NCBI GenBank assembly: GCA_963170055.1
Contig: CAUJGJ010000242.1
Coordinates: forward strand, 2,362,977 to 2,426,976
Reading direction: 5' to 3'
Length of the DNA: 64,000 bases
Source of the DNA: Halisarca cf. caerulea
Lineage: Eukaryota; Porifera; Demospongiae; Chondrillida; Halisarcidae
Of this stretch, positions 3,323 to 64,000 are shown one piece after another (the stretch's first letter is position 1; every line of letters starts with the position of its first letter). The notes beneath the pieces were generated by a model. That model saw nothing but the letters and a program-made list of their open reading frames with translations. It had not been told where the DNA came from and searched no databases. The position numbers and the translations under genes are program-made.

Positions 3323-3416
3323 TCATTTAATTGTCACTCCTTCGTAAGCTGGGCTTGTTGTCATGGTAACATCAGCATAGTGGGCTTCATCAACCTTTTC
3401 ATAAACAGCATCCACC
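3323..3416 (-). CDS. Gene A exon: cytoplasmic tail with three tyrosine motifs, stop
   Basis: 30 codons plus TGA. YEKV, YADV and YEGV follow in order. The second and third tyrosines are 11 residues apart, within ITAM spacing, but with Val instead of Leu/Ile at +3. Near-identical to the tails of genes B and C. Confidence 0.85.
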
Positions 3417-6400
3417 CTATAGAATCAAATAGATAGTGTTCACATTTCATCTGTATAAGTATATATTAATTGTATAATTTGGTACATAAGACTTGTATGG
3501 ACTTCTGGCATTATTGTACCAAATTTGAATTTGCAGACAAATTTAAAGCACTTAAAGTGGGCGACTGACTTATTTTCGGCTGTAGTATCTGTCTCAGTTA
3601 ATGTAGGTTGTTTCTTCCATTTCCTCAATTTGTAGACTCCACACACTATTCCTAGCACCAGCAATACAGCCACCACACCAATAGCTACCCCTCCAAATAG
3701 CACTCCCACAATCACAGTGTTGTTATTTGCAGGTCTTGGAGCATTCAACAAGGCTAAATAAGGATGGAGAATGAAACAGACACTGTTTTTGTACACAATA
3801 AGATGACACCATGTGCCCCTTACTATTTTCTGTGTCTCCCTTATTCTTCCCATTCTCAGTTGTAACTTGGACTGAAATAATATAGGAAACTTTAGAGTTC
3901 AAACCAGAAATGACTACACTTGAACGTGTAGTGTTGACACTTCCTCTAGAACTACCATCAACTGATTTGTAGGAGACAATGTATAAAGGAAATCCTTTAG
4001 CTTCTGTGTGGGACAGTGGTTGCCAGGATAAGAGGACAGAACCATCAGGATTCCAGCTAGCTCTCACACTGCCAACAGGTTTGGTGGGTACTGTATATTA
4101 TTATATACAAAACATAGTAGGTTAAATTCGGTATAATATGGAATACAGTGGAACCCCTCCTATATTTGTACACTTTGGACCTAAAAGCACTGTTCTGATT
4201 ATCGAGGTGTTCTTATATCAGGGTTTGGAGATGTACTGTGGCTTTTTGTAGTGGAATATTTGGTTTCAGTGGAATGTGTCCACATTAGAGGGGTGTCCCC
4301 AATTCAAGGGGCTGGATTAAAGGGGTTCCACTGCAAGAATTAAATTTTATTCATGCAATCAAGATTCACACATATCAATTCATTATTCGTAATACCTCCT
4401 TCCTTCGAAAACACATCAATTGCTGCTCTTTCCCCTAAACCTTTACTTGTACGAGCTCTAACAGCTACTCTGTATGGAACCTCACTTTCTATAAGGATTG
4501 ATGTACAGTGTGTAAAACTCAATGATCCTGGAAGTATACTTGCTATGTGAAATTTATAACTCACGAAGTCCATTCAGTGCAGCTGATTCAGTGGTTGCAC
4601 TCAATACTGTTTCAACCCCACCAATAGGACCATAGGTAACTTCATAGCCTAGAATTCTACCATTGGAGTTGAGTGGTCTTTGCCAGGTGATTCGAACACT
4701 TCCATTTGACATTGGCACCGACATGAGGCTTGCAACTGGTCCAGGAACTGTGACACAAGAATATAAAGCTAACAATATGTTCATTTATTTCTTAGTATAA
4801 TATTAAATCTAACTAAACAGTAATCTTGTAAAGGTAACCTATTGTAGATAAAAGAAATTATAGGATGGCCTCTCCAGAATATTAATTGATTTTACATGAA
4901 CACATCATTTGCAATTAACTTTCAAGTAGGCAACTAAAATGTGCATGTACTCACGGTCATCAGAAGTGCTGATCAGTGATCCTGTACTAAATGGTCCAGT
5001 CCCATTCACAGTAGAGGCAGCCACTCTCACTGTATACTCTGTTCCTGGACTCAATCCTGTGATGTTGTAGGTGATGAGCTCTGGAGTGCTGAAGGTGGGA
5101 TTTGGTGAAGGAACAGTGACATTTCCAATGTTTGGAGATACCTCAACCATATAGTTGGTAATGATTCCATTCCTACCACCAGCTAAGGGTATGTCCCAAG
5201 CCACATGGATCCAAGTAGATCCCTTATTCACACTTCTTACATTTCGAGGTTGCCCATCCGGAACTGTAGGGAATTATGAGATTCGAAGAAATGTCATGAG
5301 ATATCCATTCATTTGTGACACAAAAGAGAATTGGTTATTAACTAAACATGCATGGGCTAACCATCACTGTACGTCCTAGCAGTACCAGTCACAGGTACAC
5401 TCAGTCCTGCTCTGTTACCAGCTTGTACTGATATGGTGTACTCTTCATATGGATGAAGACCAGTGAGGGTCAGAGTAGTGGATGTAGTAGATCTACTCAT
5501 TCCAGTGTAGTTGACATGGTAGGTGAGAGGTAGCCGGTCACTGTTTAGAGGTGGAGTCCACTGTACTTTGATGGATGCTGAGGACAGGGTTGTGAGAGTA
5601 ACCTGTGGAGCTGAATGGTGAGGAGTATGTGATCAATGATATAAAAGCATGCCCGAAATTAATGGCATGTATACAACGATTACCTTCTGGTGTAGTAAAG
5701 CCTTCAAAATCAGAGTTATTTACCACACCAAGTGTGTTCCTTGCAGAGATCTTGAATGTGTACGCAGTGTTGGAGTCCAGACCAGTCACCGTGTACAGTG
5801 ACTGTCTAGTTGTGATAGCCTGCACTCCAGTACTAGTACTCAGCCCAGTCTTCATGTAGTAGATGATGTAGTCCTCAGCTCCACTGCTGGTCCATGTTAC
5901 TTCTATGCTGTTTTGTGTAGGGCTAATTCCTGTCACAACTGTTGTAGTTGGAACTAGTAAAAGGATGTATATCATGTATGAAATCAATGATATAACCACA
6001 TAACTTGGCATTGCACTAGCTACCAATCAATCTCCGGTACTGTTATAAGTTATTAATTTAAAATGTTGCCAAATGTGGCCTTTCTTCAAAATTGTAAGAA
6101 GGTGAAAATACAAAGCTGAAGGATAAAACCCCTTCTTAAACCCGCCTTTGTTACAGAGATAAACTGTTGCTTGCTGTTATTTAAATTCTCCTTTCTTCTA
6201 GCAGCCATTCATATTTGCCTTCTTCCTGTTGCATATATAGCGAAATTGTATAGGGGATACCACAGCCCCTAAAAAGAACATGCATTATAAAATGACATAA
6301 CACAATGATTATACTTAACAGGTTATTTTTTATAGTTGCCAATTATTTTTTATGAGTATCCAAAATGCAGTTGTTTTTGAGACAAAAACAAGGTAAGGGT

Positions 6401-9400
6401 AACAAATTAGTTACCCTTACCAGTAGGGGTAACAAATTAGTTACCTCTACAGCTCAGCCAATAGCAATAATACATTCAAATATGCTACATTTCTGGGTCC
6501 CTGGTTTGTTATTGGTATATCAAAGAAAAAACTGCAGCTGAATTGATGTAATCCTGGCACCCTCATGTTTTGCCTTGCTTAATATATATCCCATTTCTGC
6601 TTCAAAATCTGAGTAGCTCCAATAAAATGCCCAAGATTTAGCACAATAACAAACTTTGTTTACAAATTCTCCAGAATTGTTATGAAAACAGTGAAAAAGC
6701 CAGACACAGTGGAGACTAGCTTAAAAATAATTGGCCAGTATAAAAATTAACCTGTTACTTTAATTATTCCACGATGACGTCATACATCAAAGGGATCACC
6801 TTGGCAGTAAATTGTTTACTGCCCAAAAGTTAGGCAGTAACTTGTATAAGCGCCTACCCTAATATAGATTGGGGTTAACACATTAGTAGTAACAGTCATA
6901 TATAACGCCAGGAAAATGAGGTCAACTTTACCCTTTCCCTTGGTACCCGACGGATATCTAAACAGTCTAACTGTTCTGAACACAAGAGACAGTGATTTTT
7001 GAATCGTAGGAGCGAATAAGTTCTTAGTGTTTCAAAATCGATTTACTTGGAAGAAAGCTCCAGTTGGATTACTTAAAAGAAACAATTTTACAGATAAGGA
7101 TCTCTCCACTTGTCTTGTAATGTGTGTGTGCTTCCTAGTGAAAAGCCTATAGATATATTGACAGCACTTCGCTACAACTTATCATAGGCAGAATGATAGC
7201 TTGTCCCAGCCTTCGGCGATTAACCAGTTACAGTCAGACTTCACTTATCCACACACATCCGTTCTGAATGAAATTGCACATAAAGTGAGGGAACTGGATT
7301 AATGAGGGAGCAGTAGTATAGTGTAGAGTAGGATTATTGCAGATTTGTTCCAGTAACAACTACTGTGGAAGGTGAGGGAACTGGATGTCTGAGGTGCAGA
7401 TAAGTGAGATCTCACTGTACTACAGTTTTAGTGGGGCGTAACGTGTTAACTGACCTCACCCTCGGGCACTTTTAGGGTGAGAACAGCAAACACCTTATGC
7501 CACACTAAAACTGTAGTAACTAGTACTTACAGTTGATAATATAATGAAATATAATAAGCTCACGAGGAGGAGGGACATCTGCGATATAAAAATGATTATT
7601 AGTAATTGTGTAATAATTAACAAATTCAGCGTGCATGTGTTGTCTAACTTATGCCAATTATGTAATCTAATAATACTTTTATTGTAGGTCTAGAATTGTA
7701 GAGAAGATTGAGCAGTGCCAAATTAATTAGCTTTACACACTATTAAAGTAACGGTATAGGCATAGGGTGAGTAATTATGATATGAAATTAACCTTCAGAC
7801 ATAACACTAATTCATTTACTTTCCACAATTTGAAATTCAGGTTGCGTGGAAGTGGCGAATGCTTAACATAACATCACTTTGATAAATTTACTTATGTGCA
7901 TGTTCGATAACTATCATGTAGGATTCAATTTAAACTTGTACTTACAGTCAAAAGTTCTCTGCTGTCTTCTGTCACTGTATTGTCCTCGTCCACCTGATGA
8001 CACAGCTCCCACCCAGATGTAGTAGGTTGTTCCTCTACTAAGTGGACCCAGTGTGGTAGATGTACCAGTGATTCCACTAGTACCACAGTTAGCATTAGAT
8101 GGAGGCTCAGACTGTGTTCCGCTAGTTGTACTGTAACATACAGTGTAGGTGATACCACTTCCACTGACTGCGCTCCATGACACTCTTAAAGCTGGAGATG
8201 AACCTTGTACAGTTCTAGTGGCAGTGGCATCTCTGACCTTGGAGGGTGGTGGTGGTGTACTTGTGGGAGCTGAAGGAACGACAAGAAGTGATTCTATATA
8301 TAATAATCATTAGCAACAGTCATGGAACTGAGTAATGTAATACAATATAATTACATTTTAACTTGACAATGTAACAATTATGATACAAAAATAGAGATCT
8401 TTTGAAATCGCAATTAGTACTTCAGAACGAATAATTTTACTTGTCTCGTACGTATCTGGTGACTATATCCATAATAATTAGCTTTTGCTACTTGTAATAA
8501 GATGTGCCATGGGTACGGGGAACATTTTCGTTGTCGTAGATGCAAGGAAGCACGCACGTAGCTCGCTACTCCTTTCTTTCACCAGGGAAGCATTTCAGAA
8601 CAGTCAGGCATCAATACTTGTCACTTTTCGGACGCATGGCATAAATTTCGCAAGCAACAAATTATCGTGCTTGATTTTAAACTTTTGGCAAACTTTCTTT
8701 ACTCACAAAACTTTTTTGGTATTTCGGCCATTACTTTCAGTCTTATATGCTTCAGAAACAACTGTAATGTGGAATACCTTGCTAAAATTTATTACTTATC
8801 GGGGGAAAGAGCACTCTTATGCGTGTCACTGGTGACCAACTGCTCACTCATAAAAACAAACTCAAATTTTCCTGTGTGACAAGTCATTCCGGCCAATCAT
8901 GAGTAAGCTCTCATGATTGGCCAAAATTATGAGGTGCAGAAAGTCCCTATTATTATATAATAAGGTACTAGTTAGACCTGTCATGTCAAATCTTGTCCCC
9001 TAAAAGTTGTCTCCTATTCTATTGACAGCATAATTGAAAGATGTGTACCACACATAGGTAGACTTAGATAAATGCTGCAATTTGAGAGACAAACCAGTAA
9101 CCATTACAACATTATGATGATATACTGCAACAACAAACTCTTGTGCAATCCTTGAAATGACAAAGAGTTCTAGCCACCCCATGTTTGCGGGCATAATGGG
9201 CGATATCCAATGTGTCCGTCTGTGACGATTTCTCATGAATAACATTATATACTTGCTTCTTATTCTGCTCCCTCTAGACATATTATGTATTCGGTTATGA
9301 AGTAGATGCACAAGTAATGTCCCAAAAAGATCAAAAGCAAATCACGTTTCTAATGGGACTAAACTACGTCAGCATCATTGGTGCTAAAAGACCTACACAG

Positions 9401-12400
9401 CTTGTGTTATGCCATATGTGTTGAACAACTTAGCCCAATAGCAAACCATAAGTCTCCCTTTTCACTTATTATCTACTGCATTGATGGTTCATAAATCAAA
9501 TGGGACATGAAATATTTGTACATGGTTGGGATGACTTGCGAAAGCATGAGAATGAAACCAAATTCTAAATTTTCTATATATACCTTGACATTACAGAATA
9601 TACAGTCAATAAACCTTAAATTATGTTGCTCTATACACTCTGCATGCAGAAAGTCTTACATTGAAAATGTTACGTTTAGTTTTATATTTACGTGGAGAAT
9701 TTTTAAAACACGGAGATGTTGCAACTTACTGAGGAATACTGACAGAGTTGGTAAGCCATTTGCTGACCGCAGCCTACATTCATATTCTCCACTGTCTGTT
9801 GACTGGAAAGACTCAAAATGCAATGATATTGCATGACCTCCAGTGTTTGTTGCATACACATCTGGTGTACTTCCCGTTTTGGTATATTCCCCATATCTTG
9901 ATATTGAACTGTCATCACGTACCCTGTACCAATCTTTGACTAAGTTTGTTTCAGAGCACACAATGTCATATGTTTTTGATGGAGTTATTGTGAGAGTGGC
10001 TCCATTCTCCAGATCCACTTCACCTTCTGAGGCATCATTAGTGTATAGTCTTGGTTCAACAACTGAGTAGAAGTGAGGTATATATGCCATACATTACATT
10101 TTACATTTCAAATATAGGAACTTGACTTAAAGATTCAATTTTTATATGTAGTGCTAGTGAAGAAGCAAGTACATACTACACTATTACTGCACGTGTACAT
10201 TAATATTATGAAACACAATATTACTAGAGCTTAGATCATAATATTGCCAGTGAGAAGGATTATAAAGGAATATATAATATGCATGGAAACCATGCATAAA
10301 GAAGGAATTATAGGTATTAGACTACCTTTTGTCTGCATGTGACATAACATATAACATGAGATAATGAAAAATTATAATGCGTAGTTATTCGTATTGACAC
10401 TTTAAATAGCATTTTAACCATCAATGATACAGATTAATCTACAATATACAGCTTTCATAGTTGCAATGTACTGAACCCAATAATTATGAGGTATCATATT
10501 CCCCAATAAAAACTAATGGACAGTAACAGTTATTTCGTTTTGTTTGCTAAATTTTGTCAGGTAACACCAATCACATGCTCATACTATACAGACCAGCGGA
10601 AATTCTTTCAGCTGTGACAACAAACGGCAGGACATTTTAGTCCATAAAAGATAATCTGTCAACGTTTCAAGCACATGTTACACATGTAAGACATGCCCAG
10701 ATTTGTCATGATAGCGCTTCCCTGTTTGCATAGTGATAAAATGCTATTTTTCGACACCTTTAAGTTATTAGTCACACATTTATTTCATGATTTAGGTTGA
10801 TATTCGGGCATATACGAATACCAAATCCGCGTTTAGTGATGTTTTCTGTCGTCACGTTTAACTCAGTCATATATATACTGGCCTGTGACCTATCTAGATG
10901 TCCTTCAGAATTCTGATGGGTTTACAGGTGCCAACTTCAAGCCATTCATAGTATACAACTTTTCTATGCCGGGGCAAAAGAACCTTTACTCCTGTCAAGC
11001 AGTTACAACAACTTGAATTTTGCTTATTGAGGGTCATTTTTACAGATCTCGGCTGTGGAGTGGAATTGTCATTGCTTCCGTATGTGAAAGTTAGTAAATG
11101 TTTTGCTATAGCGATTTATGTGAAAAAGTAGTCTTACAAGCATTCCTCCATGATACGCTGAAAGTGTTTCGTTTTTGGTAGGTGTTAGGATAACCTTACG
11201 AACTTCTTCGTGAACTAACCAGATCTTTTAAATGGAATTCTTGAAATGTTTATGCCTCTACCTAAATGTTAAGCCCTCGTTTGACGCTCTCTGAAGCATC
11301 TACAAGATTAGAACAAAGGCTGTTTAATATGACCGAAATTTTCACACCTCCTAATTAGCACGGACATGTCCCACATGCGTAGACGTTTTGATCTCCGTTA
11401 TGCGTTTTAAACTTTCTTATGCAAGAAAGCTCTTCTCAAGCCCTTGGTCACATGACACCACGGCTAATTCATACATGTTCATATGTGGAGGCAAGCTTGA
11501 GCTTTTGAAGCTCTATCACTTTCAGATCTGCCCGTTCACAGTTTACTACGATCCATTGCTAACATGGTTGGCCAGAACCCTTTTTATTGATAGTACAACG
11601 ATTTAAATCTTGAATACTAGGAAGGTGGTCACATGGCAAAAATGTGATAATTTGTATTTAGCATGACAATTTAATCGCATACCTGTCAAAACCACAATAC
11701 GTCCCTTGCAACCATGAATCTGCCATAACTTACCTATGTGTATAAAATTGATATAAGTGCACTCCTACTTGTGAATCAAGTTAATATCGCAAGTCATGAA
11801 ATTTTGGCTAGCCTCATTTAGTGGGACACATAAATTTTTGTAAATGAAAATAGCAGTCTCTCATTGGATATTGCACAACTGTCACAATAGTTCCTCTCTT
11901 GTTTCGCAAGCATTTTCCTCTTTTAATGAACAAAAGTGAGTGTCATTTATCCTATAGCTATAGTTAGTACTTATTTCTCTCAGGAGTGAACCGGCAAGAT
12001 GAAGAACAGGTGAACTGTAGTCCTCTCTACAGTTCTTTGTCTTTGTTAACGTCATGGAAACTGCAAAACTATTGGCATATATCCTTACACAGCCACGTTC
12101 CCTAAACTTAACAAAGCAAACCCAAGGAATAGTCAAACTAAGGACCTAAGCAAAGTATGTTGCATAATTAATCCTTGTATACAAAAAAAATAATTATTGT
12201 GGATGACTAATTTTGTGGATCCTTTCGAACTACAAAAACTACGAAATTTATTAGCAGCGAAAGTTTCCCGGTGTATGATATTTGAAATAGCATACCATCG
12301 TAAGTAATGCTCTGTCTCCCGTCACTGTATGGTCCTCGTCCTCCTGATGACACAGCTGCCACCCAGATGTAGTAGGTTGTTCCTCTACTAAGTGGACCCA

Positions 12401-14186
12401 GTGTGGTAGATCTACCAGTGATTCCACTAGTACTACAGTTAGCATTAGATGGAGGATCAGACTGTGTTCCACTAGTTGTACTGTAACATACAGTGTAGGT
12501 GATACCACTTCCACTGACTGCACTCCATGACACTCTAAAAGCTGGAGATGAACCTTGTGCAGTTCTAGTTATAGTGAGACCTTGGACCTTGGATGGTAGT
12601 GGTGGTGGTGGTGGTGGTATGGGAGCTGGGGCTAAAAGAAGCAGAGTATTAGTACTAATATTGTTGGCTAAAAATCCATATTGATCAAAATTATAAGAAC
12701 AATAATAATATTATATATTTAGCTAAGGCAGTGAAGAATTTTCCATTGGAAACACTACATGCAGTATTTTTTCATATTCAGTTGTACCTAATTCAGAAAC
12801 ACCAATATGTACAAGACAACCCTCCCTTATACACTGTTCAATTCATGCACTGTTGCATGCTTTCTGAAATACCAGGGTTCTATCTAGCAGCTAGGGAGAG
12901 GGGAAAGCTTCCACCCCACCCCAAATGTCCAACTTCCTCTTCCAAAAAACAAGCGATTCGAGTTAAAAAACTTGTGGGCTGCCTACGGCCCTGGAAACTC
13001 GAATCGCTTGGAAATCGGCGTTGACTAAAATAATACTTCGAAGATCTCTTATGGTCTAAAAGACTCTTCGCTGATAAAATCAGGAGCAAACTAATGAATT
13101 TCACCGATATATAGCCGAAAGATTATGTACCGACTTCGCGTCCGCCATGTTGTTGACATATATATAATATATAGACATCATTCCGGACATTCCGGACACT
13201 TCTGATGAAAGTAAAGATTATATAGGGCCGCTTTCCGGCGGCCCAAAAACAACTTTAGTGTAATTTACTATGGGGAAGACCCTTTGTGAGGACTACAATC
13301 ATCTTCAATTTCACCTTTAATCAAATTACCTTAAATGATGTAATATGACCTCAGATCACCATACATAACCAAGAAGACCCAAGATCTCACCCTACATGGT
13401 TTATACATATACTACACACGCATCAAAACCTATGACCCGTCATTACACACGCATCAAAACCTACAACCCGTCATGTCTCACACAGTAGACATGCATTGTA
13501 AGTTCCCCGCCCTCCCCCTTAAACATCAATATTTGTTGGTAATGCACAATGCCAAGCATTATCCATAGCATAGGAACAGAATGTCGTGCATTTTAATATT
13601 GCATGATTTTGTGCATGACATCCGGTGCAGTTGAAAGCAAAAGTGTTTGTACCATAACAATATGCAGTGCAATTGTCTGTATGAGCATGCTTATATTCTT
13701 GGTTATAGAGACATTTCATAAGGTCTTTACATGAGTATACATTGACTAACATCGGAAACTAAGTAAGTTTTATTAATTTTTATAAATTAAAAGTGAGGAA
13801 TAATAACTGTGGATGCAACTTACTGAGAAATACTGATAGAGGTGTTAGGGTATGCCCATCATGGCTAGTGAATCTGCACTCATATTCTCCAGCATGAGTT
13901 GACTGGAAAGGTCTGAACTGCAATGTCAGCACATGACCATGTGTGTTTATTGCATAAACATCTGGTGAAGTTGCCGTTTGACTCAATCTGATTATTGAAC
14001 TCTCAGACTGACCACTTACTCTGTACCATTGCCATATGTATCGAGTGTCAGAACAGTAAATGTCAAATGTTCGTGATGGAGTTATTGTGATTGTTTCACC
14101 ATCCCGGTTGACAGTTTGATCTGAGTCACCCTTGATGTACACTCTCCGTTGAACAGCAGATCTAGAAGAAACATGTTGTGCAAAAG
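3323..14186 (-). CDS. Gene A: Ig/FN3 single-pass receptor with tyrosine tail (multi-exon)
   Basis: Probable type I membrane receptor. Exons in transcript order: 14186-13824, 12631-12296, 10062-9730, 8269-7946, 5953-5684, 5610-5362, 5263-4955, 4747-4565, 4488-4396, 4090-3824, 3753-3570, 3416-3323. Domains in order: Ig, FN3a, Ig, FN3a, FN3b, c, d, e (split over two exons), f, TM helix, tail. All introns are phase 1 except the last (phase 2), and the exons sum to 1000 residues plus stop with no internal stop. The first exon reads AFAQ-HVSS, like the back half of a signal peptide, so a small upstream exon is expected, as in genes D and E; I did not find it. Both FN3a exons begin with proline-rich linkers, which suits internal placement. 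The ligand is unknown. An alternative is two genes (13.8-12.3 kb and 10.1-3.3 kb), but no tail exons lie between them. Confidence 0.75.
3570..3753 (-). CDS. Gene A exon: transmembrane helix
   Basis: Phase 1 in, phase 2 out. Short juxtamembrane stretch, then a hydrophobic helix with GVLFGGVAIG (a GxxxG packing motif), Cys near the inner face, and the stop-transfer KLRKWKK. Confidence 0.85.
3824..4090 (-). CDS. Gene A exon: membrane-proximal FN3f
   Basis: 89 codons, phase 1-1. Contains VLLSWQPLS, LYIVSYKSVDGSS and a C-terminal KNKGDTEN. The donor after AAT A is a good gtaagg, which makes the lost donor in gene B stand out. Confidence 0.83.
4146..4333. mobile_element. MITE with CAGTGGAACCCCT terminal inverted repeats
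   Basis: Left end CAGTGGAACCCCT and right end AGGGGTTCCACTG are inverted copies around 188 bp. It lies in the gene A intron before FN3f. Confidence 0.7.
4396..4488 (-). CDS. Gene A exon: FN3e, second half
   Basis: 31 codons, phase 1-1. Contains EVPYRVAVRARTSKGLGE, the F and G strands. Length (93 nt) is identical in genes A, B and D. Confidence 0.78.
4565..4747 (-). CDS. Gene A exon: FN3e, first half
   Basis: 61 codons, phase 1-1. Encodes strands A to E of an FN3 (RITWQRPLNSNGRILGYEV). The rest of the domain is in the next exon. Confidence 0.8.
4955..5263 (-). CDS. Gene A exon: FN3d
   Basis: 103 codons, phase 1-1. Contains HVAWDIPLAGGRNGI, YNITGLSPGTEYTVRV and NGTGPFS, with N-glycosylation sequons. 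Donor gtgagt. Confidence 0.85.
5362..5610 (-). CDS. Gene A exon: FN3c
   Basis: 83 codons, phase 1-1. Contains KVQWTPPLNS and the conserved LHPYEEYTISVQAGNRAGLS block shared with genes B, C and D. The donor is gttagc, weaker than gtgagt in gene B. Confidence 0.8.
5684..5953 (-). CDS. Gene A exon: FN3b
   Basis: 90 codons, phase 1-1. Contains VTWTSSGAEDYIIYY and LDSNTAYTFKISA, the FN3 B/C strands and the F strand. Close paralogue in gene C at 33.2-33.5 kb. Confidence 0.82.
6027..7230. other. Gene A intron, repeat-rich, no exon seen
   Basis: Part of the intron between FN3a copy 2 and FN3b. It contains the hairpins at 6392-6448. No FN3 or Ig coding signature in any frame. Confidence 0.55.
6392..6448. 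repeat. Two adjacent hairpins
   Basis: GGTAAGGGTAAC and GTTACCCTTACC form a perfect 12-bp stem with a 6-base loop (aaatta). A shorter, related stem with the same loop follows directly. Confidence 0.7.
7231..7417. mobile_element. CAGT-ended MITE with TA duplication
   Basis: Begins CAGTCAGACTTCACTTATC and ends GATAAGTGAGATCTCACTG, flanked by TA on both sides. Tc1/pogo-type target choice. Confidence 0.65.
7946..8269 (-). CDS. Gene A exon: Pro linker plus FN3a (copy 2)
   Basis: 108 codons, phase 1-1. Linker PTSTPPPPSK, then the same Cys-paired FN3a as at 12.3-12.6 kb. Acceptor ttcag, donor gtaag. Confidence 0.82.
8270..9729. other. Gene A intron, no exon seen
   Basis: Includes the 8891-8922 hairpin. 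No domain signature was found in the open frames here. Confidence 0.5.
8891..8922. repeat. Perfect 13-bp hairpin
   Basis: GGCCAATCATGAG and CTCATGATTGGCC are separated by 6 bases. Confidence 0.7.
9730..10062 (-). CDS. Gene A exon: Ig-like domain 2
   Basis: 111 codons, phase 1-1. Cys in YDIVCSE, Trp in KDWYRV and the DSGEYECRL signature. Paralogous to Ig1 with the same donor gtaagttgc, but without the signal-peptide remainder, so it is an internal domain. Confidence 0.8.
10679..11379. mobile_element. CGCATGTGGG TIR element, copy 1 (gene A intron)
   Basis: The right end GGACATGTCCCACATGCG is intact and the left end is eroded. Internal landmarks (AATACCAAATCCGCGTTTAG, GTTTGCATAGTGATAAAA) match the copy at 20319-21048. 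Confidence 0.7.
11380..12295. other. Gene A intron remainder, nothing recognised
   Basis: Short frames only; no domain or TE termini that I could identify. Confidence 0.45.
12296..12631 (-). CDS. Gene A exon: Pro linker plus FN3a (copy 1)
   Basis: 112 codons, phase 1-1. Starts with the proline run PAPIPPPPPPLPSK, then an FN3 with SWSAVSGSG, an unusual Cys pair (YTVCYS and NANCST), and YYIWVAAVSSGG in the F strand. Donor is gtatgc. Confidence 0.8.
12949..13246 (+). repeat. Hairpin-bearing repeat family, copy 1
   Basis: Starts CAAGCGATTCGAG and reads back as CTCGAATCGCTTG about 50 bp later, enclosing a GGC/GCC-rich core. Ends with a second GGGCCGC/GCGGCCC pair. Matches 52809-53076. Confidence 0.65.
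13414..13475. repeat. Short tandem pair, about 30 bp x 2
   Basis: TACACACGCATCAAAACCTA followed by Y-rich CCGTCA occurs twice in tandem. Confidence 0.7.
13519..13745 (-). CDS. Candidate alternative terminal exon encoding a Cys-rich domain
   Basis: A 74-codon open frame ending in TAA with nine cysteines spaced C-x5-C-x13-C-x3-C-x9-C-x2-C-x9-C-x3-C-x9-C. A phase-1 acceptor (gatgttag) lies 78 nt below the gene A Ig1 donor, behind a pyrimidine-rich stretch. Splicing Ig1 to it stays in frame and would give a short secreted Ig plus Cys-rich protein. I do not recognise the Cys pattern. It could instead be a chance frame or a cassette with a weak donor. Confidence 0.4.
13824..14186 (-). CDS. Gene A exon: Ig-like domain 1 with signal-peptide remainder
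   Basis: 121 codons, phase 1 at both ends, acceptor cctag, donor gtaagttgc. V/I-set hallmarks: Cys in FDIYCSD, Trp in WQWYRV, and the GEYECRF motif near the end. The N-terminus (AFAQ) resembles a signal-peptidase site. Confidence 0.8.
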
Positions 14187-16260
14187 CTAGGACAAAATAT
14201 TGAAAGTGGCTATAATAGATATATTTCATCCAATATAAAGTAATCAAATTTATGCATGTGAAATGTTGGTATCTTATGGTCACTGAATTATAGAAATAAA
14301 TGCATCCAGATTCCCTTATGATACACTTTTCATTGAAAATGTACAATATAATACGACATTGTGTAACAAATAATGGGAACTGTAAGACAGTATTATAGAG
14401 ACTTAGTGGTGTGTGGAGATAATCTTTTTTGAGTATCATAATGTATGAAATTTCAGATTTCTGAGTAATGCGGACAAAGTAGGTATTCTACTCATTGACA
14501 ACTTGGTTTGAGAGAAACCTGCAATGGGAATATTAATTATGACTGTTCATGAAAACAGATTTGGTGGCTGATGTCCACTTGGATTGTTTATGTTTATTGT
14601 GTACCTCATCATGCAGGCTTTGTCCCCTAGTTCTGTTTTACATGTGGCACGTGCACATCAATCTATAACTAGTTGTAAACATAGCCAGGTATATCGTATA
14701 TGTACATGTATTTTGCAAGTTTAAAAAAGTATTTTACTGGCATTAACCAACCACAACATGATTGACCTACATCTAATAAAATGTAAGAATGTTGAAAAAA
14801 AAGTCTGATCCAATATTGTTTAATGGTATGAACCAGAACTATGGTTCAATAGTATGAATAATATGTGTACTATATTGCCAAAACTCCTGTATTGACTACT
14901 CATGAATTGAGGCACATAAGGACTGTCTTACAACTGTGGGGTGCATAGCCGCAGCATTGATTACCTTGTGGTTTGATTGTTATGAAAACTGCAAGATTAT
15001 GTAAACTTTTGTAGATTGAAGTGAGGATGAGATTGAAGGAGAAAATGGACTTCTATACTGCACTTCCACTAACTAGCATGAAACAAGTATTTCTGACGCT
15101 ACTAGCTGTGTTGTTAAGTCGATTTAGATCGATTGTTTGTGCAGACAAGCCTTCTACCATGGAAACTAGCCACTTCACTTGCAAATCATGCGCGCCAACA
15201 ACTACTAATCAGCATAAAATGGCAGACACGATCTAGGCTGAGCTCAATTGGCTGGAAATGATTGAAGGCACCTAAGGCACCTTTGAAGGAGACACTTGAG
15301 CTTCTTGTTGATAATGATGATGAATAAGACTCAAGAACGCATTAGCTGTGAGAATGGGTTCAGTTTGGGTTAGCTTCCCTAAGCAATTCTTTTGTTTATA
15401 GTTCACATTTGTTGCTTTCACTGTACTGCCAGGTCTTTCTTGCCCTAGAGATAAATGGTTAAATGTCCAACTATTAGATGAATAAGGGAATAAAAGTATC
15501 TTGCATAGTAGACGTTGATTGTGCATTTTTTTTCGTGACTGACCGTAATTGACCTGACAAAGGTATTTTGGTTGTAACATAAATAAGGTAAATATGGTTT
15601 AATCGTACTATAAAATGCATGCACCATCACTGTACCAAACACTCACAGTAATAAGGGCTTGGTACATAAAGAAGTGACTATTCTGCATGTCTCTTCTCAA
15701 ATTCTGAAAGCTCCAACTAAAACTATAAACTCAGGTAGTACTGTACTAACCACAATTATCTGAAACAAAACATTATGCATGTACGTACTGAATAAATTTT
15801 GTTATACAGTCATTTCTGGGATCTGCACCTTTCATCAGCTACTGTAGGACTGGATAGTAACAGTAACAGATGTTCCTTGGAAGCTTTGCATCAATAATAA
15901 CAGCAATTAGTGATTCATTTAAGTTAAGATTGTGGCTAGAACATTTCTACCAATTTGAATACTCCTGACATAATATAATACTAGGCAGATGATTGTCATT
16001 GTGGGGGCAAGCCTGAGTCACTGGTAGAGGCATAAAGACGATCGATAAGCAGCACTTCATTATAATGCTGGCTGCCCAAGAACTGGGATTTGCAATTGGG
16101 TGCATGCTTGTGTGTGAATAATATGTGGAGCAGTGCATGGGGCAGCTAGAGATTTGGTACAGGAGTGTAGTTCTTTAGAAACTTAGAATCAACTGAACAT
16201 GCAACCGTTATCAACGTCGAGTGTAGCTGCATGAATGTTGTATAATTAATGTGTTGTTCT
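14187..16260. other. 5' side of gene A: expected first exon not located
   Basis: By analogy with genes D and E, a 45-50 nt signal-peptide exon with a phase-1 donor should lie here on the minus strand. No candidate met start, hydrophobicity and phase together. A plus-strand signal-like frame at 15078 has no partner exons. Confidence 0.4.
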
Positions 16261-19202: not shown

Positions 19203-19296
19203 TCATTTAATTGCTACTCTTTCGTAAGCCGGGCTTGTTGTTATGGTAACATCAGCATAGCGCCCTTCATCAACCTTTTCATAAATGGCATCCACC
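19203..19296 (-). CDS. Gene B exon 12: tyrosine tail
   Basis: 30 codons plus TGA with YEKV, YADV and YERV. Intact, which suggests the donor loss is recent or that the exon is still used. Confidence 0.78.
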
Positions 19297-22200: not shown

Positions 22201-22364
22201 ATAACCGTATCTGCGAAAAGTGACTACTTCATGGGTCTTACCAGTTTTGCATTTCTGTGCATTTTTTGATAGTGTTTCAAATATAGTACAACTTGAACCC
22301 ATGCACTCGCGAGGTCGTCACAAGTTCCGTTCCGCAGTTATGTCTGAATACATTCCACTATCAC

Positions 22365-22416
<52 letters not shown>

Positions 22417-22815
22417 TATTACTTTAGTTTTGAGCTACAAGACTTTATAGTTCTATTTCCATTAGTATATAATATTATTATGAGTTCTGATATATAGTAT
22501 ACTGCATCCGTCTCCTGCAGGTCTTGTTATTGGCCTATTAATACAGGCAGTAATTATGCTATTGACAGAAATTAATGGTGGATGTATGGAATGGATCAAG
22601 ACAGAAAGTGCAATAACTTGCTTAAAATTTAATGGCACTGAAACTTCACCGACCTTTCACAAATTACCTAAAAAAAAGATTTGCATGAAAGACGAATTTG
22701 TGCACTTTTTGATAATGAAGCAATTGGAGCGCCATTCCCAATTGCTTGCTTTACCACGAAGTGGAACCTTTTAGTAAGTACGATCATATATACAAGTACA
22801 CATGCATGCATGCAT

Positions 22816-22897
<82 letters not shown>

Positions 22898-22925
22898 GCA
22901 CACACACACACACACACACACATGT

Positions 22926-22991
<66 letters not shown>

Positions 22992-24617: not shown

Positions 24618-24694
<77 letters not shown>

Positions 24695-30847: not shown

Positions 30848-30969
30848 CTACACAAAAACAAAAATCATTTGAACACATTAGCTCCTAAACCAACAAACTG
30901 AGAAATTAATAAAAAAAATCAATAGCTTCTATTTAGCCATTGCTCAAAACTATTTTGTCTTTAGCTTAC

Positions 30970-36784: not shown

Positions 36785-37010
<226 letters not shown>

Positions 37011-37112
37011 CTGTGTACATGCCTGTGTGTGCACATGGGTGCATGCATGTGGTGTGGATGTGTGTTTTCATTGTACACATGCATAAATGTGTGAGTGAGG
37101 TGACAATTCAAG

Positions 37113-39741: not shown

Positions 39742-53311
<13,570 letters not shown>

Positions 53312-56262: not shown

Positions 56263-59200
56263 GTAAGTCGTCTTCCTTCTAGCCATAGGGAACAGTGCAC
56301 ACCCATTGGTAATCCAATGTGATCCATAATCTATTTCAAATTGGTTATGTATAATATCTGGTATAAAAGGTAAATCCCTGATAAACAAGTAATTCCCCAT
56401 TTCAGTACTTAATGAATGACTTGGAGTTTGACATCAACATCCCGAATGCCATTTATATTACATTGGTGTATGATAAGCACATGATCACTATGATGTATAT
56501 ACGTGCATGGAACTAGTGGCTCGCTTATGTTCTTGCGTGAGCAGCTGCAGTTTTAGCAGTGAACAGTCTGCGAGCTGCCCTCTCCTAGCTGTTACTGTAT
56601 TTTTAGCTAGTACAGTACACGCTTCCATTCGGAAAGTCTGCAATAATATCAAACTACATTCAATTTGATGAAATGCAGACATTCGAAGCAATTCAAAGTA
56701 TCCATGCAGGAACTGATGCATGTAGACCAGATAACTGTAACTACATGAAGATTATATACTTCTCTTAATACATGGTACGCAGTCTACATACAAACTCTAT
56801 TGTAGTTAACTATGTACGTACATCTCATTTTTCTATAGTTAGTGAATTAACACTTCTGAATTCTATAATAATTTTATGTCAGTTTTACTAATATGATTAA
56901 TACTAATACTTTACCATTATAATACAAAAATGTAGTGCGTGATCTAAAACGGCATAATTTCAGTACCGGGACTTAATATTCTTGTAATTTATAAGTAATT
57001 CTGCATTTACCTGACATACAGCAATGTGGACTAGACCTTTATGATGGTATATTATGAAGCTATACATTCTTTTTTTCACGTATTAACGTCTGCATTTTCG
57101 GTTGAAGTCTCTAAACATTTTTGTGCCAGCAATCTGGCACACCGGTTGTCCCATCAAGCTTACGTAGGCCTTACATGCACAGTATGATTGTAAGTTTGCC
57201 TGATTTTATCATTTGATCTGCAACACATTTTGTACTTTAAGATAAGCATCCATAATGTCTTTGACAATCTTTCTTTCATTATGTCTGGTTACAAAGTATG
57301 GATGGCCCCATCAGTTCAAGCTCTGTCCAGTGCTGTTCAGGGGATATCTGCTTCTAGGACAGTGTATAGTTCATCTCCAGCTTTAAGTGTGTCATGGAAT
57401 ATAGTCAGTGGAAGTGGTATCACCTACACTGTATGTTACAGTACAACTAGTGGAACACAGTGTGGACCGCCCACTAGTGCCAGCTGCAGCACTGGGATCA
57501 CTGGAACATCTACTACATTAAGGTACCTTTATTCAGGGTATTACTACTACATTTGGGTGGCAGCAGTGTCATCGGGAGTGCAAGGACCATTCAGTGATCG
57601 CTACCAAATCACAACATACAGTGGTAAGATTTCACAGAATATTATAGTACATAAATTGGGGGCGTAGCCAGGGGGGTGCAAAAGGGGCAAATACCCCTTT
57701 TGCACCCCCCCCCCCCTTCAAAATTTCACATCTTTAATATTTATTTTGATTCTTTTAATAAGAACATGAAACTCCTGAGTCCTTACTGTATACTCCCAAA
57801 GATGGAAAAGCTTCTAGATACTGTAACTTGCAAATAATTGACTTTCCTCCTCAGAGACAGCTTTGAAAGATTCTAAACTACCTTTAATCATTGAATCACT
57901 CAAGTTTATTGCTCAGTACAATTAGTACGTGTGGCAGCCATTTCACAGAGGAGAAGCCTGCTACTTACAGTGGGCATGACCACAAATTTGTTCATTCCTT
58001 TGCCCCTCTTTTCTACAATCCTGGCTACACCCCTGTAAATAGTGCAGTAACTAGTGTATTTTGTTGTCAACTCATCGCAGGTGTGACATGTGCAGCATGT
58101 GTGGTGTTAGAAAATGGCCATCCTAAAGTTGGCTGAAATGAACTCCCTCTTTTTCTTGCTTCCACGGTACTTATGCAGTACAAAAGGCATTCAAAACATT
58201 AATTGACTATTTTATGCTACAACAGTTACCTAACTTTATTGTCAATACTTCGTATAGCTGAAAAATTGACCACAGATTCGGACCTTAATCAAAATAAGTT
58301 TAGTGCAAAACCCAGTCATGTTGACCATTGCAAAGAGCAGCCATACTTTGTCAAAAACATTCTAACAATTATAATTAATATGTAGATTTTCACCACTGTT
58401 GAACGTACCATTCTCTTTCGTTACCGAGATGTACATCAAAATGTTGTTTTTGACACAGAGTAAAACTGCAAACTTGTGCACATGTCGGGAATGGAGCATG
58501 CTATCAAAATCAACAACACAGTGCATTTATTACCACCTGTGGCTCACTTGGATTGTGGGCATTGCCTATTCTCAACGTCACAAATTAGCAGCTGTTCTTG
58601 ATGCATCATTGAGCATACTTCAGGCAATGTTTGATAGTTCCCATACCAGCAGAATGGTAGGAAATGATGACTTTGGTGATGTTGTGGTTACAAATATGTT
58701 AAATGTCACAAAAATGGCTGTTTTTCTGAGGTGAAGAAACACCAGCTTTGCCGCGGGTCAACATTTCTTCTGATCTTTGTGCTTTCTGTTTTCATGGGTA
58801 CGGCATATGTCAAAATTTACGAAAATCACTTGGGGAAAGTGTTATACAGTGAGTCTCGTTATAACGAACATGCTTACAACGATTTTCGTTTATAACGAGG
58901 TAAATATCAAGTCCCAAGTCCCAATGCAATCGTTATAATGCAATTGTTAACATTATAACGAACACGCATATAGCGAATATTCGTTTTTAACGAAGGAGAA
59001 GATGCGACCGCATCGTGAATTTGTGACTTTATAGCGAATTATGGGGGGACACATGCAACAATGACTTAGTCTTCAGTAGAAAAAGGACCTTATTCGAGCT
59101 CTGGATAGTGCCGCACCATCGACATAAGAGAAAGGAGGAAATTGCAGCCTACTTTGGTATACCACACAACGCGCTATCAACGATTGAAGAACCACACAAG

Positions 59201-62200
59201 TTTGGGAGCAAAAGAAATTTGCTGATTACCTTAAGCAAACCTTGGTTTAGGTTGTTTCATTGCATTTGTTACTTACATGTCATTTCAATGTACAACTAAT
59301 AGTGATATTTTGATTTGAAACACATAGAGTTTGTATTAAATGTAAATTTCTCTTATAGTGAATTTCTCTTATAAAGAATTTTTTTGCCTCCCCCTGAGAT
59401 TCGTTATAATGAGACTCCACTGTAATCAGGTATGTATTCAGTGTATGCTCATTTAAACGAAATTTTTCATGTTTAATGGGCAGAAAAAACAGGGTTTTTT
59501 GCCCATAACTTTCGTTGCGTCTGTTATAACCTATTCCCCAAGTGCTTTTCGAATGTTTTGCTAGTTTTTCCTTCTTTTGAGACTAGTTTTATGAAAATTC
59601 TCGATAATTTTGACCAGCGGCAAAGGCAGAGTTCGTTTAAAACAGCTACTTTTCAGTCATGTTTTTCTTCCTTCAAGAAAAAAGTTATACCGTTAGAATT
59701 ATAACTTCGCAGTAGCTAGTATACTATGTGTTCTTTTATTCTACTATATGAACTTAACGTCCCCCTATTTGTATTTAGAAGAAAACGATGAGCATGTGAG
59801 CACCTACTCAGCGACGGTCAATATATATGTCATTTTCTCACGGGCAGTTATAAATACCTTGTGTGTAGTGAAAATTTACCTTGACCTAGATTGTGATCTA
59901 ATTCTAACGATATGGCTCCCCTACACAACCATTTAGATGACTGGCCATGGGTTTTCAAAAGAAACTCAGATATTGAAAAAGTCTCTCTCGCCGTATGCCA
60001 TAAGATGGTCACAAGATATAATGATGTCACCAACATGTAGCGATCAGTGAAATTGATACTTCCTCTAACACAAATGAATAGCCATTAGAACATTTTGAAA
60101 ACACTGTATGTGCCGACTAGTGCGATATTCGATATAATTCTCTTCTGTTTGAGAACAAGAAGGCCTATATTTCAAGCGACTTCATAAACGTAAAATGTGA
60201 TATTATTTAATGAAATTCCTTTGTAAACCACACAACGCCCCTTTGTTTCCAGAAAAGGCACATGTTACAAGGGAACAACAGAATTATAAAGTACTGAATG
60301 AGATGAGATTATGATAAAAATAATACACACACTACACATATCAAGATATAAAATAGAAATGCAAAGGCACATGTTATACCTGTGATCTGCACATTTTATA
60401 TATTATTCATGTGCACAATAACATTATGATGCATATTGTATAAGAAAACATGAGAGCTATATAATGGGCATATTATATAACACATTATTTAATTTGTGTA
60501 TGAACAAAACTGAAGTCAACATCATAAAAAGAGTGCGTATTGCATATGCACAATTTGTGCTACACAATGTCATTTCAAATTCCTGATTTTGTCTTTTCAG
60601 CTCTATATTATACAGTGTACAATATTCAATAAGTGCCTATTGTACTAGACTAAGTCCTTGTACACTTTTTCAACACATGGCTGTAAACAATTATGCATAG
60701 GTGCACCCAAAGCTGTAAAGTGACACATCAAAATATGTCATTATGATCATTATGATAACCTCAAGCTTTTCATAGCATGACCAAATATGGCATTTGATTG
60801 AAACTTTCTTTAATGTGAAGCATGCATTGAATGATTATTGCATTTTATTTATCAGTACCAGGGACAGTTTATGTCTCTGTGACACCCTCAACTTCTGCAT
60901 ATGGATTGGTTGTTACATGGGGTACGCCTTCTGGAACGTATCCAACTCCTCTAACCTACAGACTGAGGTATCGCCTTTCAACATCCAGCAGTTGGAGCGG
61001 CACATATACAGTTTATGGAAGACAACACACAATATCCAGCTTATTACCAGGTACCAGATATGAGGTGAGGGTTTGGTCTGTTTCACCAATTGGAAGTGGT
61101 TCAACAGTGTCAAGATATGCAACCACATATCAACGTAAGTAGATTCTTCATATCAGAAAACTGCATGTATATTCCATTATTTTATACAAAGTGTACAGTC
61201 ATTTACTGTCTATTCCACACAATGCATGCGCAGTGCCTGGATCAGTGACTTCTCTGAGTGCAGCACCATATTGCTTTGGATATGCATTGACCATAACATG
61301 GGGATCACCTTCTGGTAGCAACTATCCAACTCCTGTTACCTATCGACTCAGGTATCGTGAGAGACCATCCAGTGGATCAGTTGGTGGTTGGAGTAGTACT
61401 GTACAGAAGACTGCTACACAGAGACAGTACACTACACCTGTACTAAAACCAGGTACTAGGTATGAAGCAGAGGTTTGGGCTGTTACTAGCATTGGAAGAG
61501 GGCCAAGTGTCACAAGTACAGCAACTACATACCAATGTACTGAGTAGATTGATTAATTCTATCCTAGAAATCCACATCTGTATACTGATCCTTTCTTTTC
61601 ACATGTAGTGTCAGGCCAAGTAACCTCTCTGCAAGTGAGGCCATCCACTACCATATTTGGACTGAACATAACATGGGGACCACCTTCTGGTAGCAACTAT
61701 CCAACTCCTGTTACCTATCAACTCAGATATCGTGAGAGACCATCTAGTGGATCACCTGGTGGTTGGAGTAGTATAGTACAGAGGAATGCTACACAGAGAC
61801 AGTACACTACACCTGTACTCAAACCAGGTACTAGGTATGAAGTGGAGGTTTGGACAGTCTGTAGTGTAGGAAATGGACCTACATCATACAGAACAGCAAA
61901 CACTCTTCAATGTATGTACTTCCAAGTGTACACACATTATATACTTATCTTTACACTATTTTCTTTTAACAAACACTTATACATAATATTATAGTACCAG
62001 GATCTGTTACATCCCTCCAAGTGAGACCATCCACTACCATATTTGGACTGATCATAAAATGGGGGCCACCTTCTGGTAGTAACTATCCAACTCCTGCTAC
62101 CTATCAACTCAGATATCGTGAGAGACCATATAGTGGATCACCTGGTGGTTGGAGTAGTACTGTACAGAGGACTGCTATACAGAGACAGTACACTACACCT

Positions 62201-62840
62201 GTACTCAAACCAGGTACTAGGTATGAGATAGAGATATGGGCAGTGTCTAGCAGCTCTGCAGGACCTACTCGCCAAGTGAACGGGACAACAGGTAAGGAGC
62301 AAATTACAATGCAGTCAGGGTTAGTTTGTACAGAGGAATTGGTAATATTGTTTAGTAAGTACCTGATTTAGTACATACTCCTGGATAGTAGGGATTATTT
62401 TTATCATTCTGTCCCTGTGTATAACTCATGTACATAAACCAGCCCTGATAATAAGTACCTATGTTATTTCAACTAATTTTCAGAATCTGTCCTTTTTAAG
62501 GTACATATTAAGCAAGTTTGACTACATTGAATTGACATTTTTGCTATTTATCCAGCATCTGGTGCAGTAAGAAGTCTTAGAGTAACACCACATTCAACTC
62601 AGAGATCACTGATTGCGACATGGCAGCCTCCAACAGATATCACCACACCACGTCGATACAGACTGAGATTTCGTAAGACACCATCAGGTAGTTGGAGCAG
62701 TGAAAGGACGATCTACTTACCAAAGACACAGTACACTATAACTGGTCTGGAGGTTACTACTAGTTATGAAGTGGAGGTTTGGGCGACTCTGGGGATCAGC
62801 GAAGGTAGCAGAAGTAGACAGACAGCTATTGTGAAAGGAG
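56214..62840 (+). CDS. Gene E: FN3 receptor, tandem duplicate of D, 3' part outside window
   Basis: Exons seen: 56214-56262, 57297-57623, 60856-61134, 61234-61536, 61609-61911, 61995-62291, 62556-62840. All are open and phase 1, giving 614 codons so far. The split signal peptide is MMKGMDYHLLIKLFTF plus VWMAPSVQA. The seven exons pair one to one with gene D exons 1-7, and five of them have identical lengths. Intron sequence also matches, for example after exon 5, so the D/E duplication is fairly recent. The expected exon 8 is not recognisable before the window ends. At its place the intron homology stops exactly at the acceptor, so gene E may be truncated or rearranged. Confidence 0.8.
57297..57623 (+). 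CDS. Gene E exon 2: signal-peptide end and FN3a
   Basis: 109 codons, the same length as in gene D. The Cys set VCYS, TQCG, ASCS is kept. Donor gtaaga. Confidence 0.85.
57657..58035. mobile_element. MITE with GGGGCGTAGCCAGG ends, copy 2 (inverted)
   Basis: Left GGGGGCGTAGCCAGG, right CCTGGCTACACCCCTG, inverted relative to 16261-16612. Includes a poly(C) run near 57704. Lies in gene E intron 2. Confidence 0.7.
58710..59660. mobile_element. Inverted-repeat element hosting a pogo-like relic
   Basis: GCTTTGCCGCGGGTCAA at the left pairs with an inverted TTGACCAGCGGCAAAGGC at the right, and CACTTGGGGAA with TTCCCCAAGTG. The two halves flank the relic at 58847-59422. Confidence 0.6.
58847..59422 (+). 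mobile_element. Pogo/Tigger-like relic with CENP-B-type HTH remnant
   Basis: Ends CAGTGAGTCTCGTTATAACG and an inverted CGTTATAATGAGACTCCACTG, flanked by TA. An interior frame reads EEIAAYFGIPHNALSTI, the recognition-helix region of pogo-family DNA-binding domains. No catalytic part remains. Confidence 0.7.
60856..61134 (+). CDS. Gene E exon 3: FN3
   Basis: 93 codons. Contains VVTWGTPSGTYPTPLTYRL and LLPGTRYEVRVWSVSPIG. Donor gtaagt. Confidence 0.86.
61234..61536 (+). CDS. Gene E exon 4: FN3 (GSNYPTP type)
   Basis: 101 codons. Near-identical to gene D exon 4, with the same weak donor gtactg. Confidence 0.86.
61609..61911 (+). CDS. Gene E exon 5: FN3 (GSNYPTP type)
   Basis: 101 codons. Near-identical to gene D exon 5, but with an extra Cys in EVWTVCSVG. 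Confidence 0.86.
61995..62291 (+). CDS. Gene E exon 6: FN3 (GSNYPTP type)
   Basis: 99 codons. It keeps the GGWSSTVQ segment that gene D exon 6 has replaced. Ends SSSAGPTRQVNGTTG. Confidence 0.86.
62556..62840 (+). CDS. Gene E exon 7: FN3h
   Basis: 95 codons. Contains YRLRFRKTPSGSWSSERT and TSYEVEVWATLGISEG. Donor gtactg. Confidence 0.85.
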
Positions 62841-63067
62841 GTACTGAATAACTAATGGTTTAATTTCCTTGTATACTTAGTTATCCCACATATTAATATC
62901 ATAGTAAAACATCTTCACAACTACACATTTGGTTCCACTGCTTGGGGCTGTTCTAAACAAGTTTTTCATAAGCAATATATACGTTTGTACATGCACAAGT
63001 GAAAAGGTTAGCAACTTGTGTGGTTTGTATAGGGAGTGATGTAGTAATTAGTGACTTTGTGAAGCGA

Positions 63068-63823
63068 ATCCTCGAGGTACGTTACGTCCAACTGGGACAT
63101 AAACGGGACACAACATACAATGGCAGACATTATCAAGCACTGAAATAAATTCTGTTGGAACAAGATGCACAGTTCCCTAATTAATGACAGTTGGCTAAGG
63201 CTTGACCATGTCTATTTTGTATATATCTGATATAGACCTGAGCCTAATCCTAAAGTCATTTGACATCATCTGCTACCCAACGAAAAAGATGACAGCTCAA
63301 GAATTTTAAACTTCACTCAAAATTCCGGTCGGAAAATTTAAGTCTTTGAAATCAACAATTTCACAGAATGTTCCTAAAGGACCAAATATCTGTATGTTGT
63401 TCCATTCATTTTATGTTCATCGTTTTGTGGCCGCACAGGGTTTATTCTCAGTAATTTCTGTGGATAAATTAGAATTTTGACGCTGTGGAGTGGAGCAGAC
63501 TAAATCATTTTCTGATTTAGTAAGTTTACGCTTTCTTCCACATTTTTAGCCTACTTTTGTATACAAAAACCTCATTTCCCCGACTGGAATTTGCAATCTT
63601 TGTGTTTTTACATAGACCTGACCAAAGGTATACGACAATGATTTTTTAAGCACTAGATAAGTTTCTACTCTACTCATATACAAAATTGATATGTCCTTGG
63701 TCTTGTATAAGAATACTTCAGAACTGAATATCTCCTTTTGGCAGAAAACAAGGGGTTCCTTGAGTACTTCTATTGCATCTGCCATTTTGTTTTATGTCCA
63801 AATCAGATATAATCTACTTGCGA
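63068..63823. mobile_element. Insertion in gene E intron 7, absent from gene D
   Basis: Gene D runs GACTTTGCTAAGAGATTTCAC where gene E has this 756-bp insert. GCGA occurs at both junctions. Subterminal inverted GGACATAAA and AATGGCAGA segments suggest a MITE. Confidence 0.6.
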
Positions 63824-64000
63824 GAGGTTTCACAGGAATACCATTTACCTCCAACGATTCAACAGGCAACTATTATTGCCGTTCAAAGCATTTGGATAGT
63901 GCTGAACGAAGGTTAGGATGAGAATTGTCGGTCAGTTACCCTCTGCGTGGTGTTGTACGAAATAATGCTCCAAGAATGCCCTTGAGATCACTTGTTGTAA
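63824..64000. other. Gene E, expected exon 8 not found
   Basis: Intron homology to gene D holds through ACCATTTACCTCCA, then stops exactly where the gene D exon 8 acceptor would be. A short frame with GNYYC is present but not convincing as an Ig exon. Confidence 0.45.

Follow-up and report, generated by a model that had tools for sequence, protein, structure and literature searches.

Which function may be served by a cluster of receptor genes that share a common plan yet differ in their extracellular domains? This question is raised by a stretch of 64,000 nucleotides (the window) from the demosponge Halisarca cf. caerulea (GenBank assembly GCA_963170055.1, contig CAUJGJ010000242.1), which harbors five genes composed of fibronectin type III (FN3) and immunoglobulin (Ig) exons. 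The window covers bases 2362977-2426976 of this 7.3 Mb contig, here designated C226, in a genome of 194.5 Mb assembled into 454 contigs. The mitochondrial genes identify the host as a demosponge: COX1 on contig C454, translated with TGA as tryptophan, has 91% identity to the UniRef cluster I6LIL5_XESMU (Demospongiae), and the best named cnidarian entry, from a sea anemone, reaches 88% among the 120 matches listed (7999 candidates scored). As COX1 by itself discriminates poorly between the phyla, other mitochondrial genes were examined too; C454 also encodes atp9, and three tRNA genes (Ser, Cys, Leu) surround COX1. A mitochondrial atp9 and a rich set of tRNAs are typical of demosponges and not known from cnidarians. 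The original prediction, made from the window alone, proposed a recognition or immune-type receptor locus. Our analysis suggests that the window is, on balance probably, part of an array that extends over a megabase and encodes paired recognition receptors. Coordinates of gene parts (3323-64000) are window positions and Mb-scale coordinates are positions on C226. Exons outside the window are counted as genome search matches on contigs; the totals for transmembrane (TM), tail and FN3 B exons were counted by hand.

A search with the TM and tail exons revealed 60 TM and 53 tail matches on C226 among the 120 matches listed; outside this contig one TM match was found on contig C155, and six other matches look like chance. 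The search of flanking DNA for further copies, as proposed earlier, thus yielded about twelve times more TM exons on the contig than in the window, and the clustered receptor family was borne out. Of the 60 TM matches, 58 are located at 1.642-2.508 Mb and the remaining two near 7.2 Mb. The FN3 exon type B, which encodes a membrane-distal domain, gave at least 116 matches on C226 between 0.96 and 7.31 Mb among the best 150 of 312 candidates, a few being halves of one exon. The Ig exon gave 37 matches, every one on C226 (51 candidates). The five window genes are a slice of an array with about 60 similar tyrosine-tailed receptor genes for the cell surface, some of them probably broken.

Within this array, one family of phase-1 FN3 and Ig exons adjoins two kinds of cytoplasmic part, either a short tail with up to three YxxV motifs or protein tyrosine phosphatase (PTP) domains. 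A genome search with Y_phosphatase yielded at least 53 PTP matches on C226 among the best 150 of 265 candidates, all on the minus strand and located at 1.088-1.682 and 7.245-7.320 Mb. At 1.09-1.68 Mb, the PTP exons are preceded on their own strand by Ig and FN3 exons of the same kinds. The PTP matches were grouped into 17 sets; a B, C or Ig match lies upstream of 15 of them, at most 32 kb away and with no other set in between, namely B in 14, the membrane-proximal FN3 type C in eight and Ig in eight. A typical order is Ig (1307299), B (1304960), Ig (1303630), B (1302792), two fn3 exons, C (1296274) and PTP exons from 1292436 to 1286281. Within 7.1 kb of piece L149, one strand carries an FN3 C exon, then a hydrophobic TM segment and then PTP exons, with 2.5 kb of N in between.

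Twenty PTP pieces were read in sequence. WPDxGVP, HC and SAGVGRTG were present in all 13 first PTP domains read; HC and SAGVGRTG are encoded on neighbouring exons, so that the junction between them is a predicted one. Second PTP domains with the signature CSDGMGRSG were found in two pieces, and two peptides joined by hand from two exons each reached Y_phosphatase scores of 115.8 and 105.6 bits. The sister genes at 1.09-1.68 Mb fit the plan of receptor tyrosine phosphatases: FN3/Ig, TM and a PTP domain with WPD and HCSAGxGR. The 250 kb that surround the window, of which 22.5 kb are N, gave no PTP match at E<1e-3 with probes that detected 20 of 20 pieces in the positive control. The phosphatase genes lie outside the DNA on which the original prediction was based, and they alter the likely mechanism.

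The two zones of the array were compared at synonymous sites. Exon B of the phosphatase zone differs from exon B of the tail zone by a median synonymous difference (pS) of only 0.093 (18x45 copies), and the medians within the zones are equally low (0.086 and 0.101), whereas exon C reaches a median pS of 0.626 between the zones (8x22 copies). B exons of both zones differ from those of the plus-strand genes by a pS of 0.447-0.468; synonymous sites of B are therefore free to change. Ig exons were compared by protein identity only. The distal B domain is thus almost identical between the zones, while the proximal FN3 and cytoplasmic exons are old and different. The homogenisation of B spans about 1.3 Mb and includes the two zones; it reflects concerted evolution or a recent spread of exon B.

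The original prediction had likened the locus to rapidly diversifying receptors, but such diversification is not seen within this genome: distal B is homogenised, and its ratio of nonsynonymous to synonymous change (dN/dS) of 0.85 is below 1 (95% interval 0.75-0.96; 74 unique copies). For C the ratio was 0.45 (0.38-0.54; 33 copies), and pooled values within the 250 kb alone were 0.85 for B and 0.57 for C. Positive selection on B was not supported: in a tree-based codon count, three codons out of 97 reached p<0.05, roughly the number expected by chance. The idea of a conversion limited to exons was dropped: the introns that flank B are far less similar between copies than the B exons themselves, yet the same applies to other exon types.

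Paired receptors are recognised by a distal domain in common and cytoplasmic parts that differ, and the arrangement on C226 resembles the paired activating and inhibitory receptors of the vertebrate immune system. Exon order and strand suggest that, within a single cluster, related ectodomains are connected to signalling parts of different kinds, and the domain homogenised between the classes, B, would be the ligand-binding one. We propose that the exons of each zone are spliced into a single receptor and that both classes would bind the same or overlapping ligands via the distal Ig-FN3 module at a contact with a cell or particle. The tails would be phosphorylated by a cytoplasmic kinase and then dock SH2 proteins; the phosphatase receptors, which this ligand would bring to the contact as well, would strip the phosphate, and the ratio of engaged tailed and phosphatase receptors would set the response.

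In the genome, SH2 domains gave 53 exon matches. On contig C195 (1645724-1655658), SH2 and PTP exons lie 9.5 kb apart on one strand and may represent an SHP-like gene. On contig C81 at 1.02-1.22 Mb, exons for kinase and SH2 domains are arrayed in tandem; they are candidates for non-receptor tyrosine kinases. At 0.96-2.78 Mb of C226 no kinase domain (PF07714) was found among the matches listed (best 127 of 948 candidates), and receptor tyrosine kinases within the cluster were discarded on this ground.

An alignment of 46 tails, from which plus-strand tails and those of deviating length were excluded, shows the three tyrosines retained in 43, 43 and 44 and the valine at position +3 in 36, 43 and 41; the conserved tyrosine tail of the original prediction was thus supported. 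All three tyrosines were present in 34 of 55 tail exons when a loose pattern was applied. Among 52 tails of at least 30 residues, YxxV/I/L occurs three times in 34, twice in 13 and once in five. The six motif columns contain 18 nonsynonymous and 18 synonymous changes as compared to 162 and 65 in the other 25 columns (39 unique tails, Fisher p=0.019); the motif columns are more constrained than the remaining ones. In the plus-strand tails found (n=3), the middle tyrosine is lost.

Several observations weigh against an array of paired receptors. The exon classes were assigned by contig position, order and strand rather than by full gene models; two of the 17 PTP sets are without an upstream B, C or Ig match, and nine are without C. 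Homogeneity of B could result from a recent spread of one exon instead of conversion. In the tree of B exons the class labels require 13 changes as compared to a mean of 15.3 (minimum 12) after shuffling, and seven of 11 phosphatase-zone copies have a tail-zone copy as nearest neighbour, with nine expected; the tree does not tell the classes apart, and mixing fits it, with little power. The comparison of dN/dS between ectodomain and tail, suggested by the original prediction, showed that the ratio of the whole tail (0.59) is not lower than the ratios of the membrane-near ectodomain exons. Immunoreceptor tyrosine-based inhibitory motifs (ITIM) are defined as [IVLS]xYxx[IVL], activation motifs (ITAM) as YxxI/L-x6-8-YxxI/L. 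A strict ITIM is absent from 36 of the 52 tails, occurs once in 15 and three times in one; a strict ITAM is absent from all 52. Strict ITIM/ITAM immunoreceptor identity was rejected; ITAM-like spacing is found in 38 of 52 tails if V is allowed. Furthermore, nine of the 60 TM matches on C226 contain a stop within the aligned stretch, and copies that look broken comprise gene 2 of the window, truncated tails at 1738709 and 1847987 and an orphan tail at 2309963. Finally, near-identical blocks 200-508 kb apart may partly reflect assembly duplication.

Among the alternatives, an allorecognition (histocompatibility) locus, in which polymorphic ectodomains would distinguish own from foreign tissue on contact between sponges, fares best, although we regard it as rather unlikely. 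The host is a demosponge, and a large array on a single contig with duplications, probable pseudogenes and type I receptors carrying YxxV core motifs is what such a locus could look like; the FcoR genes of Botryllus are built alike, with 53 loci and ITIM, hemITAM and core Y-x-x-I/L/V motifs according to the available part of the report (PMC11067881). However, the distal domain is homogenised within the genome instead of diversified, its dN/dS is below 1, and related FN3/PTP arrays on other contigs suggest a wider use. Allorecognition by this locus is possible and testable.

Unlikely, too, are receptors of adhesion or development, i.e. LAR-like phosphatases that would serve ordinary contacts between cells together with paralogues devoid of catalytic parts. 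The nearest solved sequences include FN3 domains of the receptor-type PTPs (RPTPs) LAR, delta and sigma, titin and Dscam, and the nearest proteins among 7995 candidates scored are mostly sidekick-, LAR-RPTP- and Dscam-like with 24-30% identity. This full-length homologue search, in which 34 proteins reached E<=1e-10, revealed no sponge orthologue. About 60 tailed copies, recent block duplication, varied domain sets and a homogenised distal domain would, in our judgement, be unusual for developmental genes. A more specific idea, which we consider improbable, is that the array is a self-recognition locus: each haplotype would drive its own version of B (and Ig) through all receptors as a tag of the individual, a match would engage both classes and be quenched, and a mismatch would upset the balance and lead to rejection. 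Equally improbable is that the array is mostly noise from birth-and-death of a receptor-phosphatase array with phosphatase-less copies as decaying by-products, as the lost donor of gene 2, the short gene 3, broken tails and block duplications would fit, but the retention of tail tyrosines (43-44 of the 46 aligned), constrained motif columns, a wholly intact gene 1 and 42 different tail peptides among 52 argue against it.

The layout of C226 was analyzed further. The order of tails repeats in three blocks, at 1953377/1966955/1974769/1982515, 2161579/2180177/2190459/2197436 and 2296891/2311043/2320425/2328069. TM-tail pieces are mostly 95-99.8% alike between the blocks; three comparisons reached only about 86% (L044 and L045 with 2297464; L038 with 2320368). 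Elsewhere, one TM-tail pair 200 kb apart is 100% identical. The near-identical blocks may be recent duplications. Two regions, 1628107-1635925 and 7256120-7260265, contain inverted pairs of B and Ig exons; the members of a pair have equal scores and lie a few kb apart, and the pairs are either true palindromes or assembly fold-backs. B exons at 2.57-2.69 Mb and at 0.96 Mb have no TM/tail or PTP match nearby among the matches listed; a third cytoplasmic part or secreted forms are possible.

Relatives of the family were also found on other contigs. On C155 (764860-765580, piece L181), a lone FN3 C exon and a TM exon are kin to the window family; no family tail was seen in this 0.7-kb piece. A second large FN3 array is located on contig C89 at 1.61-2.15 Mb, with PTP exons at 1.61-1.62 Mb; its FN3 C-like exons are 44-49% identical to those of gene 1, and it is probably a sister receptor-phosphatase cluster. 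As FN3 C-like and PTP exons also adjoin on C89, the phosphatase architecture is probably older than the tailed one. The tailed class would have arisen from receptor phosphatases whose TM and cytoplasmic exons were exchanged at the phase-1 junction.

Within the window, the five FN3/Ig paralogues, three on the minus and two on the plus strand, were confirmed, each with its own exon set. There are 38 FN3 exon matches on the genes' own strands and many blocks 70-95% identical between genes; chance is therefore excluded. The predicted common C-terminal plan was also found, with a TM exon and a short YxxV-type tail in all four genes with visible 3' ends. Exon types were defined by clustering the FN3 and Ig exons of the contiguous 250 kb at 50% identity. 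From N to C terminus the order is Ig (K) and FN3 B, 0-4 FN3 A, E, H/J/I, D, F, G/M/O, C, TM and tail, and the genes hold differing subsets of these ordered types.

Gene 1 (3323..14229, minus strand) is predicted to encode a type I receptor of 1015 amino acids; the 12-exon model contains no stops, all introns are GT-AG, and introns between ectodomain exons are in phase 1. Its plan comprises a putative signal peptide, Ig, FN3 (B), Ig, FN3 (B), FN3 (I, D, F, G, C), TM and tail. Among eight ectodomain exons examined with Pfam, six FN3 exons scored above the fn3 cut-off and the second Ig exon above that of V-set/ig; the first Ig exon remained below the V-set/ig cut-off. All parts lie on the minus strand: the first B exon at 12296..12631 (fn3, 39.2 bits), the V-set-like second Ig exon at 9730..10062 (V-set, 27.1 bits; cut-off 26), the second B exon, the membrane-distal module, at 7946..8269, the membrane-proximal C exon at 3824..4090 (fn3, 31.5 bits), the TM exon, to which the 60 matches on C226 correspond, at 3570..3753, and the tail exon with YEKV, YADV and YEGV followed by a stop at 3323..3416. 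An AlphaFold model of exon B reached a pLDDT of 73 with a five-row alignment, and its PDB matches are FN3 domains; a model of the Ig exon (pLDDT 50.6) was too poor for use.

Gene 2 (19203..25971, minus strand) has the order FN3 B-A-A-E-H-D-F-G-C-TM-tail. The donor after its last FN3 exon, C, reads AATAAG as compared to AGTAAG in six other minus-strand genes, so that GT is lost. Gene 3 (30754..35562, minus strand) has a short ectodomain of types L-N-I-C with incomplete domains, including a partial FN3, followed by TM and a three-tyrosine tail. Exon order places the switch from minus to plus block at 35563..41926. Gene 4 (41927..53311, plus strand) has the order FN3 B-A-A-A-A-E-J-D-F-M-C-TM-tail with an uncertain first exon; its tail (53210-53311) contains two tyrosine motifs, YDKV...YGVM, and lacks the middle tyrosine. 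Gene 5 (57326..64000, plus strand) starts with FN3 B-A-A-A-A-E; its TM and tail lie outside the readable DNA because the window end cuts the gene and the next 5 kb are N. Long CA/TG microsatellites occur in or between the genes at 18009-18550, 22773-22998 and 50093-50286.

Sponges tell self from non-self, and sponge aggregation factors contain Wreath and Calx-beta type domains. In a grafting transcriptome of Amphimedon, adhesion genes of the aggregation-factor type showed no significant enrichment in the text available, and the word 'receptor' is absent from the main text (PMC5450542). A comparable sponge array was not described in the accessible text of the publications among the matches listed, including PMC5450542, PMC12909245, PMC4772301, PMC5336234, PMC5041008 and PMC12723187, with subscription papers and preprints mostly outside this scope; such silence is weak evidence of novelty. 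The locus provides a concrete test set: on one contig, some 60 receptor genes with tyrosine tails and more than a dozen phosphatase sets have a homogenised distal domain in common. If the pairing is true, counterbalanced phosphotyrosine signalling by paired receptors extends to sponges, with the phosphatase built into the receptor.

Among known systems, the LAR-type (R2A) and R3 RPTPs resemble the array in their Ig and FN3 ectodomains and in the PTP domains of the sister genes, with a second PTP domain in two pieces. To Amphimedon one R3-type sequence was assigned in the part of the report available (PMC5336234). Unlike these RPTPs, the window genes are devoid of PTP domains and the family has undergone a large tandem expansion. 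Vertebrate paired receptors (CD300A/C, KIR, LILR, SIRP, FcR-like) are similar to the array in that related ectodomains are placed on opposed signalling parts, the genes are clustered and distal domains are homogenised. CD300A and CD300C are described, in the accessible part of the source, as paired receptors that share ligands and have opposing effects. The array differs in that its ectodomain is FN3-rich, the opposing member does not recruit SHP but carries phosphatase domains itself, and the tails carry YxxV motifs that are mostly not strict ITIM and never strict ITAM.

The Alr genes of Hydractinia encode, as far as the available text states, clustered single-pass receptors with pseudogenes (PMC11067881), and ITIM and ITAM motifs are reported for candidate genes of this allorecognition complex (PMC12065747, text available in part). 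Alr ectodomains belong to the immunoglobulin superfamily (IgSF) and are highly polymorphic, whereas the array consists mainly of FN3 with some Ig domains and a homogenised distal domain; judged by domain type and not by Alr sequence, it does not have an IgSF-only ectodomain. Botryllus FcoR comprises about 50 type I receptors at one locus with Y-x-x-I/L/V core motifs (PMC12065747); according to the accessible text, these receptors differ from the array in their Ig/sushi ectodomains and long tails, and the CD45-like receptor phosphatases expressed in Botryllus ampullae are not named there as members of the FcoR family. In the way the array may work, Botryllus FcoR and Hydractinia Alr are the closest cases.

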